Part shown: positions 4,702 through 63,532 of the stretch, piece by piece
Layout of the letters: each line of letters opens with the position of its first letter
Position numbering within the stretch: the stretch's first letter is position 1
Position numbers and translations under genes: made by a program
Notes under the pieces: generated by a model
What the model was told of the DNA's origin: nothing
Databases searched by the model: none
The model's input: the letters and a program-made list of their open reading frames with translations, nothing else
Assembly (NCBI GenBank): GCA_025266875.1
Contig: JALLLT010000009.1
Location: 620,001 to 684,000 of the forward strand
Direction: 5' to 3'
Length of the DNA stretch: 64,000 bases
Origin: Fennellomyces sp. T-0311
Taxonomy: Eukaryota > Mucoromycota > Mucoromycetes > Mucorales > Lichtheimiaceae

Positions 4702-7150
4702 TGTGATGAAGAAATGATAAAGGAGCGAAAGAAAAGATACGTTAGGTGTTTACATATACCCGTTGACACCAGTGAATAGAAGTTTCGGCCAAGAAGGCGT
4801 GTCTCGTGCCACCATTATTGAGCGTGGCGGGAACTCGTGCAACGCAAAGGTTGGCTGGTGGGACTACACCCGATTAGTATCTTTTTTTTTTCTTTTGCTT
4901 GGCTTACATATGGTAAGAGTTGTGTACCTCAGGCGTGTTTCTAAATTGTCCTATTAATAAATCGCAATTCGATTATTCTACCCTATCGTTCTTTCCACTG
5001 GAAAGTTCCTCGTGTAAAGATGTAGATAACGTAACCAGCTGTTTACTGGGTCAAACGTACAGGGAGAGCAAGTGTAGTATCAATAGAAAGATGGTTTCGG
5101 GTCTTGTTTCATAATATACATGCAAATAGAAGCTTATGCCGCAAACATCGTGTCACATGAATGCCTTCTCCTTTCTAGTAAATTACTATCTAATAAAAAA
5201 ATGTTACCGGCGCTATGGCATCATTTGATATTTTAAACTTGTTAAAAAATGTTCGATTAATATTAAAATCCGTTTTAGCCACATTGCGACGATCCCATGT
5301 TACTTGTTTCCATGTGCATTAGTGCAACCATTTTTTATATGTGTGTATAGCGGGCGTATTGCTGAGTAAAATCGTTTTTCCTCGCCCCAATGCGTAAGCT
5401 ATCGAAAGAGGGGGATTGCGTGACAAACATCGCCTCACTTTTAGTTTAGTTAGCGAACGCCTCTCCACTATATTTGTACAGAGCGCATAGGAATAAACAA
5501 ACCTGACTAAAAGAATGTTCTTGATACACGGTGCTTTCAGGGTAGGCGTCGATGTATATCCTTTATGCAGATTAACATTGCCCGCCGATGGCTTGGGCCC
5601 CTTTTTTTCCATGAAGGTCGTCTCAGCTGCCAAGAGTTTTACAACAATTGCTACTTTAGGAGTATCGAAGAATGCTGCTTCTCTCTTTCTCTCTCGCTTG
5701 CCTATACTTTAATCTAGTATAATGCAATGATCTGCACGAACTAAAACGATCAAGCTTCCACGACTTTATACACCTAATTTTTTAAAAAAAAAAACTTGAA
5801 AAGAGAATGCTATTTTTCATCGTACAGAATTTTGGGGAAGTTTGAGTATTAGCCCTGAAAGTGACCGATGATCGAGCCGACGATTAACATATATGCAGAT
5901 CGGCTCCAACCGCGCTACGACTATCCTAAAAATCTTATTTTTTTCTCCTGGTCCGAAACTTTAAACTATTCTTTTCTTCATACTGAAGTGTAATATACTG
6001 GTCTGAAACATGGAAAGCCGATATGCAAGGTTATCGTTTCCAATCGATATTTTAAGCTTGAGAAATAGCTGAGCTTACGTTTCATGTGATTTCTTTTCGG
6101 ATGATTTCGTTGTGTACTTTAATGGATTCACTGTGTAATGTTGTTCTCATGGATTAATCCTTATTATTACAAAAAAAATATCTTGGCGTTCTTCAATTAT
6201 ATGCACGCGATCTGTGATAATGTACGCATTTATTGTGTTTCTGAGTTACCACGAACCTCGATGTTTTCCTTCATGAGTAGGAGCTACGTACGTAAATGAG
6301 TAGTGCTAACGTCCATGCAGTATCTAAATTAGTGGAAAACGAGAAAAAACAATGAGTTACTGGAAGTCTAAAAGGTACATAGTATAGAATTCTTTTTCAA
6401 CCAACGTGCATAAAAGATATGTGCTAATATGTATTAGCCAGTATATCATCCAGGTCATTTTAGCAATCGCTTCGGAATCGCAAAAGTCGATGGCTCGTTT
6501 TTTCTCTAAAAAAAGGATCAGTTTTTTATACAGTAATCTAGCCCCGTAAAGCGATCGATGGCCTTTTTTTTCCAATATGCTCAAACCGGTCGCCAGATAT
6601 TTAACGCTACAAGGTACGTCAGATGCTATGCTCAGCCAAATGGCGATCTTTTATGGCCACGTGAACACAGGTTAAGCTATCAAGCTGCGAGGTGCAACAT
6701 GTCATATTCAGATTACTACCGCCGCCACACATGATGGACGAGTGCTTAGCGCCAATTTAAACAAACATCTATTTTCAATATGTTACCAAGGCTAGGTAAA
6801 AAATGATTACGTACTTAACTTTCTTACGCAGCCACTATGGCTCCTAGCTAGGACACGCCAAGTTTTATCAAACAAACGAAAGAAGAATCACAAATGTGTT
6901 TATACTTTGGCACCGTACATAACGCTGTGCTGAAGCCTTACTCTAATTTTTGCAGTGCATCTATGGGTAATTCAGCAGTATAATCACAGTCGTGAAATGG
7001 AGCTTTTTTCATATACAGTCTACGATGAACAAATTCCCTACCATAGAAGTGTGTGGACGGGTGATTAAAGGCTGGCTAGCAAGCCCAGTTGACAAATGGC
7101 GTATTACAATCTTTGCTGGAAAATGCTGCGGGTATTGTAGAGCATACCGT
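4702..7150. other. AT-rich gap, no gene seen
   Basis: Two and a half kilobases with no convincing exon chain. A minus-strand stretch at about 5700-5510 reads as a Lys-rich peptide (EAAFFDTPKVAIVVKLL...) but has no start codon, so it may be a gene remnant. The first hundred bases should hold the promoter of the Ca2+/H+ exchanger. Confidence 0.5.
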
Positions 7151-7151
7151 G

Positions 7152-7209
7152 GCTCTGGCCTTGATTGGGCCTAGCTAACATGCCTGGGGGTGGCCAGTCC
7201 CCAGACATG
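7152..7209 (-). ncRNA. Hairpin pair downstream of the Fanzor stop, candidate guide-RNA (omegaRNA) scaffold
   Basis: Bases 7079-7150 are unremarkable, but 7179-7209 form a strong stem-loop: CATG-C-CTGGGG pairs with CCCCAG-A-CATG (10 of 11 pairs) around a 9-nt loop. A second, weaker stem (GGCC/GGCC with GCT/AGC flanks) sits at 7152-7175. They begin 37 bases past the Fanzor stop at 7246, on the same transcript. In TnpB and Fanzor loci the guide RNA comes from the 3' end of the nuclease gene and the adjoining element end, so position and structure fit; the assignment itself is inference. A simple transcription or 3'-UTR structure is the alternative. Confidence 0.35.
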
Positions 7210-7245
7210 CGCCAGACGCAATAACTAAAGCTGTGGAATTCTTTA

Positions 7246-10200
7246 TTAATTCCTTTCATTTTCATGGGGTGGCCGTACAAGAGCATTTGGGCGGTAATTG
7301 GGGGCTCCATCCGTAAGCATGTATTGAATCCCAATGCGTCTCATATTGCACGCCGCGTTCTTGTCTCTGTCGATAAACTACAATAAGCGGCATCAGATTG
7401 AGCTTGATACAACTGTATCCCCACTTACAAGAACTCGCCCGTGAGCAAGCTCGTTCCTGCATTGCTTTATGGACCAAATTTCTGTATCTAAAAGTATGCG
7501 TAAGAAGAAAGCAGAATTCCAGATGCTTGAAACTTACTGCGCGCTTGTCCTTGTTCGCAATCTGCTTGTGGGTGCAGAAACACGCCGGCTTCATCGACAC
7601 ACCATTTGACCTTCCTGCCCCGATTTCCAGCAAGTGTCAAAGCGCGACGTCTCTTGATGCTAGTAATAACTTGTTAATTAATGGAACACCGAATAAAGTT
7701 CCTACCTTACATGTGAGGACAATGGATATAGGTCCCTTGGACCCGTTGGAGCCGTGTGTCGCATGAAGAGTGCACCTGACTAGTATTGTGCTCGTTGGTT
7801 AAAATAACCAAAGCGAATTTGGAAAGGAGTAAGATAAGTTCCTATTTAGTTGATAAGTTAGTAGTTATTATCGACAACGAGTTTAGGTGGACGTTATGGC
7901 TTACAACGTGAGGGATTGGGGCAAATCCGGGGATCAGAGGCATATCGCCCGCTCCATAGAAAGCGATTGTCGGCAGATCGTTTTGTTCCCAGCCTTGTTC
8001 TCGGGCAAAGGCGCGGCGATTGGCATGCCAACGCTTTCTTTGTCTTTTTGTTGTAACCTGGATGGGTAACAACTTCATTCCCTAAAAAGAATACGTTTGG
8101 TCAGGTCAGCAAGTTAAAAGCGTCCTAGATGGATATGGCATACTGGAGGAATTGGGGGGTTTACGCCTAGCACCTGATTTACTATCTGATGCTTTGTGCT
8201 CTGGCGAGCTGAAAACATAGTCCGACGGATCTCTCTATGTTTAAAATGTTCATTGAACATTTTCATGCTGTATCCTTTCTCAGTAATTATATACGTATCA
8301 ACACTTTTTGGATCAACGTACCGTGTGCGTATCATGCTGAGCACAAAGATATGCCTTGCAAAGTCTGCAGACTCGGATACATTCGCAGAATTATTTTTAA
8401 GTAGATCGTATTCCTGCTCAATTCGAAACTTCCGACGATTGACAAGCTCTTGCTTGTATTCCCAAAATACATTGGTTTTTGCGCTATAGATTTGTTTGTT
8501 ACCAAGGTTCAAATAATATGACCTCGAATTGCTTACTGGTAGTTTCGGGTTGGAACGGAGAATTGGTTCATCCACAACCCTGGTTGCGGTTCTTCCTCTT
8601 GCGTACTTGTGCCCGTGACCATTGCAGAGACACCTATTCATGTCTGATAAGAACCAGAATGATGCGATAATAGAGCATATCAGACCTACCTGGATCGATT
8701 CCCACAATCCGTGAGTTATTCAGTCGTTCCCCACCCAACCCTCTTGGCTCCTTGTCGAGAAGGTAAACACCTTTTGTCCATTCTCCCAAGTCAGCATTGT
8801 CAGCCATCTGTCGTATTTCTCGTCTTGTTGACGGTTGGGGTTCTGAACAAAATGATTAGCCAGACTCCCAAGTATCCTCTGCTATAATTACTCACCAATA
8901 TCGGCTAACATCGGCTTCTTGAAGTGCACGTGGGTAAAGGCTCCGTCGGTGCGAATGCTGTAGTCGAACGTTATTGGGTTCGTGTCCAACAGCTGGTTCA
9001 CTGCCGTACAAGATATGGGTTACTGTTGAGAATATCCTAGCAGCTGACGTCTTCTCGCACTTACCATCATCGCCTATCGCCCAACGATTCCGTTGGACAT
9101 GATCGATGTTGAAAACCTCTTCCCAAATTTCTTGACGGATGTTCATGTTTTGCGGGCCCGTGTCCCTGATGATCTCGTTGTTAGTCCGAAACTGGCCGTT
9201 CTTTTGTATATTGCAGTTAATATCTTGATTTGACTTTGCAAAGGTACTTACTGGTCTGAGAAGCAGATTCGGCACAGGTACGTGATTGTTGGCAAGCCAT
9301 GCCCGCCTAATTATGTATGCAAGTGTCCGGGTGCAGATTAAGAAGTGAGTGACCTGATGGCTCGCGACAGGAAGCAGTGACCACCGGTGCTGCTGCAGCG
9401 AGTGCTCTGACAGTGCCAGTAACCAACGACTGAACCGTAGTATTCTCTCGGCCAAGTCAAGTGTAATGTCTCTGGCGTAAAGATGAAACATGTTGGGAGC
9501 TTGAGCCAGCCAAAGCTCAAAAGCTTCGTGCATCATTCTTGTTTACGTTAATGATTATGTTGCTAAGCTTTGTCTTCCTAACCAGTCCGTGACACTTACT
9601 CATACTCCTCCACTATGTTCAGTGCTTCGACTTGTGGCGGTGGTTCTGGGATGTGGTTGATAATGTTGCTTGTAATCAGGCGTACGGCTCGTTTCAGCTC
9701 GTTTCTGTTGCGGATGAACCCTTCGAGACGCTGGCTCCAGAATTTCGATATGTACTTGGGCGTGTTTCGCAGATGTTCCTTGACATCTATCCGATAGTTA
9801 GCATATTTTTGCCTATGAGTCCAATGGAAGCCTTACTCTGAATTGCCTGGCGGGCGAAATTACTCCCCATGGCGTTGTTCAGTGTACCGTCACCAACAGT
9901 GTCTGGTTGGTACAAAGCTGTAGAAGAGTTTATATTTTAGCAGTTTACTTGCGTTGAATACTGATGTAATACCTTGGTTCGTATCGGGATCTCTTTGACA
10001 AATCCTGAAAAATGCAAAGGTCTGGCGGATGTCGTCGTCCTGCATAGGCGTTAGTATGCAATGCCCTACACTTGGATGCAGGAACACTCACGATATTCAG
10101 TCTGGTGGGAAATTGCTCTCCAATGTGCAGTCCTGCAAGCTTGTACACGTTCACCCAGAAAGTTTGGTTGAAAAGTGGCGGCATCGCTTGGAAGTGGCCT

Positions 10201-10460
10201 TCGAGGAACCTGCGCACATGAAGGTTCACAATATTCAACGCGTCTTTGCGGAGGGTTGAGTTGACATTCGCTAAAGCACGGAATTCGAGCTTCCCATTTA
10301 ATGAGCATCATGACGTAAGACAGCAGTGCATGCTTACGATCAAATAACGGTACTGCGGTCTGATCAAGGGCTTTAAGGCACAGTTCCGCGTAACTGTCCT
10401 TTGTTGTAGACCAAGGAAGCCATTAAATGGCACTCGTTGCGGGGGATCGTCAGGATTCAT
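7246..10460 (-). CDS. Fanzor-type (eukaryotic TnpB-like) nuclease gene, intron-containing, possibly degenerate
   Basis: TnpB-family RNA-guided nuclease of eukaryotic transposons, spread over roughly a dozen exons. The helical N-terminal part includes NVNSTLRKDALNIVNLHVRR, DDDIRQTFAFFRICQRDPD and RIDVKEHLRNTPKYISKFW. Next come a strand-rich part with FDYSIRTDGAFTHVHFKKP, the RuvC-I motif RIVGIDPG (near 8700), an exon with TMFSARQSTKHQIVNQVLG, then LPTIAFYGAGDMPLIPGF and KVKWCVDE (the RuvC-II region). The last exon (7377-7246) carries RuvC-III IDRDKNAACNMRRIG. These three acidic motifs in this order are diagnostic. Anomalies: the residues normally reading DEFRTS-C-x2-C are replaced by DEAGVFLHPQADC, while a cysteine pair (ACFC) appears only in another frame. 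The 5' end is also not resolved: the ATG at 10460 (MNPDDPPQR) needs a very short intron to join the next exon. It may be a decaying copy or a divergent one. Confidence 0.7.
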
Positions 10461-10593
10461 CGGGTTAAACAAAGAAAGAAGAACAAAGAAAGAAAACAGA
10501 CAGAACGCGTAACGAAGTTTTATTTTCTTTCCAAACACGTTTTATGACCACATGATTCACAGTGTCAATATTTTTTTCTATCATTATCCATGA

Positions 10594-11102
10594 GCTTTAT
10601 TCATCCTCGGCATGACATTGCTCGATACCATCCGTCTTGAGTAGCACAAGACGACAAGCGGCGATGCTTGCTTTACCATAAGCGGTAATCGCGTGCTCCT
10701 GACACAATGCAAATTTAAGGACTTTGTCGCTGCAAACAATCATTTAATGGACTTAATCGCTAGAACCCCTTCCATCCTTCCCCCCGACCAAAGGCTCATT
10801 TTCGCAAGACGTCTCGCGTTCATTGCGTAATTCATCCAAGTTATGCTCCTATGAATAACCACCATCTTTGCCTTTGATTTGGTTCTGAATATCCAAAAAG
10901 TATTTCGCGAGTATGCCGTATTTTTCCCCGCAGGCTTGATCGTCATCATTTAGAGTCTGTGCATCATCCGGAATGGGATCATCGTCGTCCTCAACACCAG
11001 TATTATCGCTGCCATTGTTTTCATCTTTCTCTTGCTCGTGCTTCCTGGAAGTCTGCCAGGACCTCGGCGCTTTTGTTTTGAAGGCTGATCAGGGTTATTC
11101 AT
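10594..11102 (-). pseudogene. Damaged AT-hook / acidic protein upstream of the Fanzor gene
   Basis: From an ATG at 11102 the minus strand reads MNNPDQPSKQKRRGPGRLPG, a basic AT-hook-like segment. In another frame it continues as DNTGVEDDDDPIPDDAQTLN and then GILAKYFLDIQNQIKGKDG, ending at an in-frame TAG. After the TAG the same frame goes on with EHNLDELRNERETSCENEP. A final stretch, VLKFALCQEHAITAYGKAS to IEQCHAEDE and TAA (10594), follows a TTTGCAG acceptor. A frame change and an internal stop suggest a broken gene, though unrecognised introns could explain part of it. It lies on the same strand as the Fanzor gene, about 130 bp before it, so it may be a companion gene or the original N-terminal part. 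No family is recognised. Confidence 0.35.
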
Positions 11103-11406
11103 ACGTGTATTGGTCGAATATGGAGGAAGTAGACCGAGTGAAAAAAAGTGCAAGGCAAAGAACCCATGTCAAAAATGTTATCGCCAGCAGTGACAATCTG
11201 CGCATATGCGCTACACAAGGGCAACACAAGGTACCCAGCCCCGACGTTAACTTCCAATATTATTGGACACTCGCTCCAAAGTACAGGTTGCTTAACTATT
11301 AATATCATTGGATGGGTGTCTACCCCAGTAGCTTTAACCCCGCCCTTGATTGATTTCCAGTCCTGCATAATTCTGACTTTGCTTGAGTTTCCTCAACTTG
11401 ATCACA

Positions 11407-45822: not shown

Positions 45823-48118
<2,296 letters not shown>

Positions 48119-63380: not shown

Positions 63381-63532
63381 AAAACAAAAAGCAAAAAGCA
63401 AAAAGCAAAAACAAAAAGCAAAAAGCAAAAACAAAAAGCAAAAAGCAAAAACAAAAAGCAAAAAGCAAAAACAAAAAGCAAAAAGCAAAAACAAATAGCA
63501 AAAACAAATAGCAAATAGCAAATAGCAATAGA
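63381..63532. repeat. 20-bp A/C/G tandem repeat
   Basis: The unit AAAAGCAAAAACAAAAAGCA recurs perfectly at 63401, 63421, 63441 and 63461. A fifth copy starting at 63481 carries an A-to-T change, after which the array decays to CAAATAGCAAATAGCAA. The unit is itself made of shorter AAAAGC/AAAAAC words, so it grew in two steps. On the minus strand it reads as a long hydrophobic frame (LLFAFCFC type), which is an artefact. Confidence 0.9.

Follow-up and report, generated by a model that had tools for sequence, protein, structure and literature searches.

A Fanzor1 gene carried by a probably recently active DNA transposon of Fennellomyces, with insertion motifs that track the Fanzor clade

Introduction

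Fanzors are eukaryotic relatives of the ancestors of CRISPR nucleases. In known Fanzor1s, a scaffold at the right end of the element is joined to about 15 nucleotides (nt) of flanking DNA that serve as guide, and a target-adjacent motif (TAM) is required (PMC10432273 and PMC11423790). The biological roles of Fanzors are stated as unknown in PMC10432273. Here, we analyze a stretch of 64,000 nt from Fennellomyces sp. T-0311, a mucoralean fungus of the Lichtheimiaceae (the window, C172:620001-684000 of a 45.6-Mb assembly), in which a multi-exon Fanzor1 gene lies within a 4,177-bp mobile element. Other loci are named by the same C contig numbers, and L numbers denote fetched loci.

Several described systems share features with this element. 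SpuFz1 and the Spu-1 elements of Spizellomyces punctatus (PMC10432273) likewise combine a Fanzor1 with many copies and ghosts; their scaffold, ~75 nt long, lies between the stop codon and the right end, and the left end is preceded by two fixed bases (CA). Spu-1 differs in its 30-nt inverted repeats and its ~2.1-kb locus with a single open reading frame (ORF), and no transposase was found for it. The window element, by contrast, has no clear inverted repeats; it has 17 exons and an 8-bp duplication, and its genome encodes a candidate transposase. PpFz1 of Parasitella parasitica, also of the Mucorales, differs in its 5'-ATN TAM, against a predicted TCAA here, and in an extra FRI domain (PMC11423790). 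Fanzor1s in mucoralean transposons were described by Bao and Jurka in 2013 (MCi-2, MCi-5, ROr-4, PBl-3, and MCi-4; PMC3627910), and MCi-2 resembles our element in a half-fixed duplication, ATAATTNNNN(N). Those elements have duplications of 11-12, 6, or 9 bp and links to Crypton, Harbinger, or MuDR, unlike the window element with its 8 bp, which is not the 9 bp of MuDR-type Fanzor elements of the Mucorales, and its DUF6729/exonuclease protein. The Fanzor1 of SfAV (PMC10711439) similarly has duplicated target bases within its guide scaffold; that study attributes the constraint to the transposase, whereas most transposase-bearing relatives here lack it. The TnpB proteins of IS200/IS605 and IS607 (PMC10432273, PMC10711439) share the left-flank motif, the right-flank guide, and a proposed copy-back, but they are bacterial, move with other transposases, and have a canonical RuvC-II glutamate in most cases.

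Multicopy fungal Fanzor1 elements, Fanzor1 genes in DNA transposons, ghosts, the logic of scaffold and TAM, and duplicated target bases in the scaffold are thus already known. Apparently new are the DUF6729/exonuclease carrier, an HxxC variant of the zinc site, and insertion motifs that follow the nuclease. We claim no priority; in the literature searched, neither DUF6729 as a term nor anything on Fennellomyces with Fanzor or with T-0311 was found.

Results

A mobile element with near-identical copies

The limits of the element were set by the ends of homology among close copies and by end alignments, and those of the duplication by tables of left and right ends.

7168..11344, minus strand (the Fanzor sense): whole mobile element, 4,177 bp
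11345..11352, minus strand: left copy of the 8-bp target-site duplication, CAATCAAG
7160..7167, minus strand: right copy of the duplication, CAATCAAG, with the CAA at 7165-7167 closing the predicted guide-RNA stem

The 5' end reads GGCGGGGTTAAAGCTACTGGGG and the 3' end TTAGCTAGGCC. Among copies, homology ends sharply between 7168 and 7167 and, at the opposite end, at GGCGGGGTT (11344); the duplication is perfect (8/8), and no inverted pair of at least 20 nt was found at the ends. Close copies occupy eight fetched loci, with main pieces 88-99% identical to the window element; a ninth locus, C118 (L040), where a worn left end is followed by the start of a clade-1-like Fanzor, was excluded from all counts. 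The C109 copy is 98.8% identical over 4.19 kb, introns included, and has its own perfect 8-bp duplication, CAAATTAC. Perfect duplications also flank elements at C172:545954 (CAAACTCA), C114 (CAAACTAG), C46 (CAAAGTAG), C2:822823 (CAAAGCAG), C2:205 kb (CAATTACA), C95:193 kb (CAAACATT), C106 (CAATCCTG), C138:148 kb (CAATTAAT), C13 (CATTTAAG), and C57:388 kb (CAAATATA). Agreement is 7/8 at C102 and C133 and 6/8 at C110 (L028) and C160 (L013), and the flanks do not match at C57:921 kb (L010), C95:1347 kb (L014), C139 (L015), and C57:615 kb (L020). A search of the genome for a pre-insertion paralogue of the window site found none.

As the introns are present in the copies, spread has been at the DNA level, and as they travel with the element, intron content is uninformative on domestication. 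The first-pass annotation, made from the sequence of the window, had taken the many introns as a sign of long residence as a host-type gene, a view not supported in the face of near-identical, intron-bearing copies with 8-bp duplications of their own.

Some further loci deserve mention. The right flanks of L010 and L012 (C57:921-926 kb and C114:115-120 kb) are 99.8% identical over 3.7 kb while their left flanks have no match, as if ectopic recombination through the element had joined them. L038:71-836 is a 766-bp ghost with the left end, a Fanzor-type right hairpin, and a perfect duplication, CAAGTCAC, in which no Fanzor ORF was seen, and C117:1118560-1118887 (L083, L073) is an internally deleted Fanzor element of ~330 bp with the duplication CAAGCTAA.

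An intact Fanzor1 reading frame

The spliced minus-strand ORF running from 10460 to 7246 had been read directly from the window, and its outer coordinates hold exactly; the corrected model has 17 exons where about a dozen had been proposed.

7246..10460, minus strand: Fanzor1 gene, 17 exons, 779 amino acids, without a stop (hand model plus protein alignment)
10460-10338, 10289-10092, 10039-9973, 9917-9837, 9786-9600, 9537-9252, 9200-9065, 9000-8896, 8842-8690, minus strand: exons 1-9
8633-8537, 8483-8322, 8267-8144, 8081-7905, 7841-7711, 7659-7538, 7487-7429, 7377-7246, minus strand: exons 10-17

All 16 introns are GT-AG and 48-64 nt long. A first hand model with GT-AG introns gave 16 exons, 790 amino acids, and a stop; alignment against deposited T-0311 proteins added the intron 8321-8268 and placed a donor at 8143 rather than 8164. 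The first-model protein matched deposited proteins with E values of 1.1e-230 and 1.9e-225. T-0311 proteins annotated as hypothetical (BJV82DRAFT) are the best matches, at 45-50% identity, and the window's own protein is not among the four deposited proteins listed as matches. These strong matches, together with two other genomic copies in which the frame is preserved along with each of the 16 splice-site pairs, show that the gene is not a product of chance. A sigma-70 promoter scan of the 5' region gave chance-level hits only.

The 779 codons and all splice sites are kept in three of nine clade-1 sequences (window, C109, and C57), and the other six (C114, C172:545 kb, C95, C160, C139, and C90) are broken or incomplete. 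The ratio of nonsynonymous to synonymous substitution rates (dN/dS) is 0.18 for window-C109, 0.32 for window-C57, and 0.33 for C109-C57, on only 7-9 nonsynonymous and 7-11 synonymous changes. Against the other clade-1 copies the window gene gives 0.22-0.43, and 0.62 for the poorly aligned C90 copy.

Alignment to relatives placed the following residues.

8694..8696, minus strand: codon of RuvC-I catalytic Asp444 (DPG, within RIVGIDPG)
7791..7793, minus strand: RuvC-II alternative catalytic Glu649 (NEHNTSQ)
7363..7365, minus strand: codon of RuvC-III catalytic Asp741 (RD, within DRDKNAACNM)
7761..7772, minus strand: candidate zinc-ligand pair 1, HxxC (H656, C659)
7441..7461, minus strand: candidate zinc-ligand pair 2, CxxxxxH (C726, H732)

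As judged from these signatures, the gene is an intact Fanzor1 ORF, in agreement with the family first proposed for it, and the catalytic residues of the nuclease are intact as well. RuvC-I has the DPG of Fanzor1s (D444-P445-G446, the G446 codon interrupted by an intron), and E649, aligned with the conserved E of VDEFRTS in relatives, is the alternative RuvC-II glutamate six residues before the zinc motif (first ligand 656). The spacing D-X(125,275)-[TS][TS]-XX-zinc finger-X(5,50)-RD is in range (D444, T652, S653, R740, D741), and carriage is by a eukaryotic DNA transposon other than IS607. RIVGIDPG and DRDKNAACNM follow in the order first described, so that two of the three proposed motifs, those with D444 and D741, stand as claimed. 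The third does not: CVDE (residues 696-699, 7601-7590), which had been taken for RuvC-II, aligns with KCLDEEG in the zinc-finger insertion of mucoralean relatives and was rejected in favor of E649. The candidate zinc site departs from a strict C4, reading HxxC...CxxxxxH in the Fennellomyces clade against CxxC in relatives; since His can bind zinc, the site may nevertheless be kept in this clade. A TDG motif of the WED domain is present by sequence at T377-D378-G379, its D and G being nearly invariant among relatives.

Profile and fold searches were informative mainly for a relative, P0012, which matches guided_TnpB in NCBIfam and for which alone a RuvC/NUC fold is supported; the AF2 model for the window clade had a pLDDT of 32.6 and was kept out of the fold search. 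Many rows of the P0012 fold search were helical bundles aligning with its N-terminal helices, and these were set aside as uninformative. In NCBIfam, one of 14 members (not P0012) matched transpos_IS256 at 2e-6, and a scan of five members of A1 gave nothing useful. Known Fanzors sought by sequence in the PDB were not found, and PHROGs gave weak scattered matches, the best at 3.6e-4 to a family of unknown function and 'transposase' at 0.021.

A predicted guide RNA at the right end

Between the stop codon and the duplicated CAA lies a conserved hairpin, supported by an alignment of 22 copies, covariation, and folding.

7165..7245, minus strand: predicted guide-RNA scaffold, hairpin of ~81 nt
7145..7164, minus strand: predicted guide segment in flanking DNA, the variable sequence right behind the scaffold, with length borrowed from published Fanzor1s

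A 72-nt right-tip query found 22 places in the genome, all aligned to the last base. Clades 1 and 2 are 75-78% identical over the last 87-91 nt, with other matching pieces at 66-72% over 68-164 nt and one 40-nt coding piece at 80%. The scaffold alignment comprises 22 of the 27 listed copies from stop codon to CAA (L010, L012, L023, L076, and L077 were left out). Pairing holds in 93.2% of cells (90.9% in shuffles), with shifted partners at 20-46%, and covariation scores 0.233, compared with 0.192 +- 0.009 for shuffles. Two pairs, columns 34-82 and 43-71, show two-sided changes; the numbers of double-change pairs and of pair types are no higher than in shuffles. For the terminal CAA the partner is a fixed UUG, and these near-invariant pairs are no proof by themselves. 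Single-sequence folding gave z scores of -2.97 for the window (-3.58 with flank), a weak -1.06 for L022, and 0.22, no better than shuffles, for L017. An Rfam search with the scaffold returned no match. We predict that the hairpin is the scaffold of a guide RNA, with flanking DNA as guide.

A carrier family with a likely transposase

The left end relates the element to a second kind of transposon in the same genome.

11290..11344, minus strand: left end, ~55 bp in common with transposase-bearing elements
10843..11037, minus strand: remnant of a transposase N terminus, 64% identical over 66 amino acids to the L030 protein (tblastn)

The complete transposase-bearing element is C123:322247-327277 (L030+L042), ~5.03 kb with GTAGATCC at both ends; the large protein that it encodes combines DUF6729 (E 4.9e-11) with a 3'-5' exonuclease of DNA_pol_A_exo1 type (E 1.8e-13). 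Another, on C154, has AAAAAATT at both ends. The DUF6729/exonuclease core also occurs by tblastn on C154, C128, C139, and partly C79, and a genome search placed it behind the left ends C151:79276 and C160:24801; C95:532 kb and C172:121 kb share just the first 0.7-0.9 kb of the C123 unit. About a hundred genome matches to the DUF6729-type core, many at 38-54% identity, indicate a large family. This protein is likely the transposase of the family, by inference; no Pfam DDE match was found among the transposase ORF pieces tried.

A 105-nt left-end query found 30 places, eight of them the window element and its close copies; most of the other 22 matches cover the first ~53 bp only, and at least three of these left ends carry other Fanzors (C118 and, upstream of clade-3 Fanzors, C102:255 kb and C57:388 kb). 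Content was read at twelve left-end loci. A 22-base left-end core has 41 occurrences at up to three mismatches, the reversed control none, and it is identical between clade-1 Fanzor elements and transposase-bearing C123, C95, and C79. The C123 unit shows homology to the window element over the latter's first ~490 bp, and 16 of 22 bases agree at the right tips. In their long stretches, the window element and the transposase elements are only ~66-77% identical. Common left end, 8-bp duplication, and transposase remnant all place the window element with the DUF6729/exonuclease transposons, and from left end, remnant, and similar right tips it resembles a C123-type transposon in which most of the transposase was replaced by Fanzor and guide RNA. 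The clade-2 5' region also contains a transposase N-terminal piece, and four further ORFs there have no credible Pfam domain.

Two composite loci were seen. At C160:24680-34288 (L065, L013), a clade-2-type left end and transposase core lie inside a clade-1 element, at GGGGCTGT, as a nested insertion. Along C2:800813-804583, a clade-2-type left end is accompanied by part of a transposase (802605-802925), by Fanzor pieces at 803189-804340, and by a right end of Fanzor type; the stretch is possibly a relic holding both genes.

Insertion motifs by Fanzor clade

At the window locus the motif is placed in the left flank.

11350..11353, minus strand: predicted TAM, TCAA

TCAA stands at 8/8 clade-1 left ends (L014 and L015 read with a one-base shift). 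Clade 2 is delimited by left-end type and takes in the C46/C133 sub-clade; 10/11 of its left ends have CAA, and 9/11 have GCA directly outside. Clade 3 has ATGC/CA at 3/3 left ends and TGCC/CA at 3/3 right ends, and C102:235887 (L058), extra to these three, shows ATGC/CA by its left end alone. The motifs TCAA (clade 1), GCACAA (clade 2), and ATGCCA (clade 3) extend 1-4 bases beyond the duplication; in the window they occur once per 177, 3,556, and 2,723 positions, respectively. Both ghosts (L038 and C117:1118560) have the motif. Distinct right flanks starting with CAA number 26 after removal of duplicates (L010, with the flank of L012, and L019, with that of L016); the test count is 24/24, as L076 and L077 were found by a pattern itself ending in CCAA. 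With a CAA-free pattern, 20 right ends in the fetched Fanzor loci were recovered and CAA came next in all (two further matches lie in the shared flank of L010/L012 and are not ends, and L026 and L027 gave none). The motif is one-sided, belonging to the left end: TTG at duplication positions 6-8 occurs in 1/26.

Transposase-bearing left ends without CAA are GTAGATCC, TCATGGTT, AAAAAGGG, AAAAAATT, CTAATCTC, GGAAAAAG, and GGGGCTGT, so that CAA is found in 2/9 with a shift (C128 and C151) and in 0/9 unshifted. Fanzor and transposase left ends thus differ at 18/19 versus 2/9 (Fisher p 2e-4), or unshifted at 15/19 versus 0/9 (p 1e-4). One left end on C117 (L050, CAATCATG) was kept out of the main count because its transposase match lies 3.3 kb behind, farther than the usual ~1.1 kb; counting it gives 3/10 (p 5e-4). 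Left ends of unread or unclear content were also left out: with direct CAA, L037, L039, and one in L041; with a shift only, L048, L046, and L060; without CAA, the other in L041, L051, both in L052, L054, L056, L062, L064, L079, and L080, the last two with near-identical flanks. The motif therefore tracks the Fanzor clade and is mostly missing from transposase-bearing relatives, which fits a motif that is the TAM of the nuclease and a Fanzor that governs insertion persistence.

Separately, L012, L014, and L074 are distinct insertions with CAAACTAG after the right end in all three. Among guide starts, three pairs share five bases (p 0.01, uncorrected, with other lengths mixed), a hint of seed-directed insertion or chance.

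Discussion

We consider it probable that the window element is a recently active, non-autonomous DNA transposon with an intact Fanzor1 gene, a guide-RNA template, and retention by copy-back. The DUF6729/exonuclease protein would move it in trans, and the Fanzor would bind a hairpin RNA that is extended at its 3' side by sequence from the DNA next to the insertion. In the window the scaffold would end ...GGCCCAA and the guide begin TCAAGGCCAGAGCC..., so that the Fanzor may recognize and cut the empty site restored by excision, (T)CAA-TCAAGGCCAGAGCC..., the predicted empty allele being TCAATCAAGGCCAGAG. Repair of the cut from a filled copy would restore the element, by the copy-back logic proposed for TnpB, and insertions beside the nuclease motif would therefore persist. 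The duplicated CAA would do two jobs, as TAM at the left and as scaffold closure at the right. Copy-back retention could explain the motif if other insertions are lost fast, and a role in site choice may also be envisaged. Since one left-end type and one duplication length go with three one-sided clade motifs, and mostly with none beside the transposase, we tentatively suggest, with a little less than even confidence, that the RNA-guided nuclease and not the transposase sets where the elements are found, either because insertions lacking a TAM are lost quickly or because the Fanzor helps in site choice.

The chief competing explanation, which we judge somewhat unlikely, holds that the motif is the target preference of a separate, unseen transposase for each Fanzor clade, to which the Fanzor adapted its scaffold and TAM, in keeping with the published 'recoding' view that duplicated target bases are recoded into the Fanzor1 guide scaffold (PMC10711439). 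The true partner may indeed be another transposase, given the ~66-77% identity of the known ones and the many further DUF6729-type genes at 38-54%, and the C117 left end with CAATCATG has such a gene 3.3 kb behind it. Yet the 22-nt left-end core is identical, and the duplication is 8 bp, in transposase-bearing and clade-1 elements alike; both transposase-bearing copies with matching two-end duplications (GTAGATCC and AAAAAATT) lack the motif; and the clade-2-type left end C160:24801, with a transposase core 1 kb behind, sits at GGGGCTGT. A one-sided left-end motif would also not be expected from a two-fold symmetric DDE transpososome. The unconstrained sites of most transposase-bearing relatives and a motif that changes with the Fanzor clade point away from the transposase reading of PMC10711439.

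That the Fanzor and its hairpin are carried along as inactive passengers appears quite unlikely: six of nine clade-1 copies are broken or incomplete, as this would predict, but three keep the 779-codon frame with dN/dS of 0.18-0.33 on small counts, and between clades the hairpin ranks with the most strongly conserved stretches and shows paired changes. A host-domesticated gene, long resident and immobile, would accord with the many introns, the intact ORF, and dN/dS below 1 against other copies. We regard it as very improbable in view of the perfect duplication, the sharply cut ends, the near-identical copies that share its introns, and a genome search in which no pre-insertion paralogue was found, which refute it for the window copy unless the ends are those of a segmental duplication.

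One genome here offers a natural comparison: transposons of the same kind occur with or without a Fanzor, and the Fanzors fall into three clades. Should the motif follow the nuclease, this would be evidence from the genome for a part played by Fanzors in the life of their transposon. TAM predictions from insertion sites can be compared with TAMs determined in vitro, and the window locus offers an intact natural Fanzor together with its predicted RNA.

Other features of the window

A tandem array of 22 copies of the 7-nt unit AAAGCAA occupies positions 63381-63528 of the window, within an A+T-rich stretch. Among its 2-kb bins, 46001-48000 has the highest GC (0.522) and a strong GC skew (0.209).

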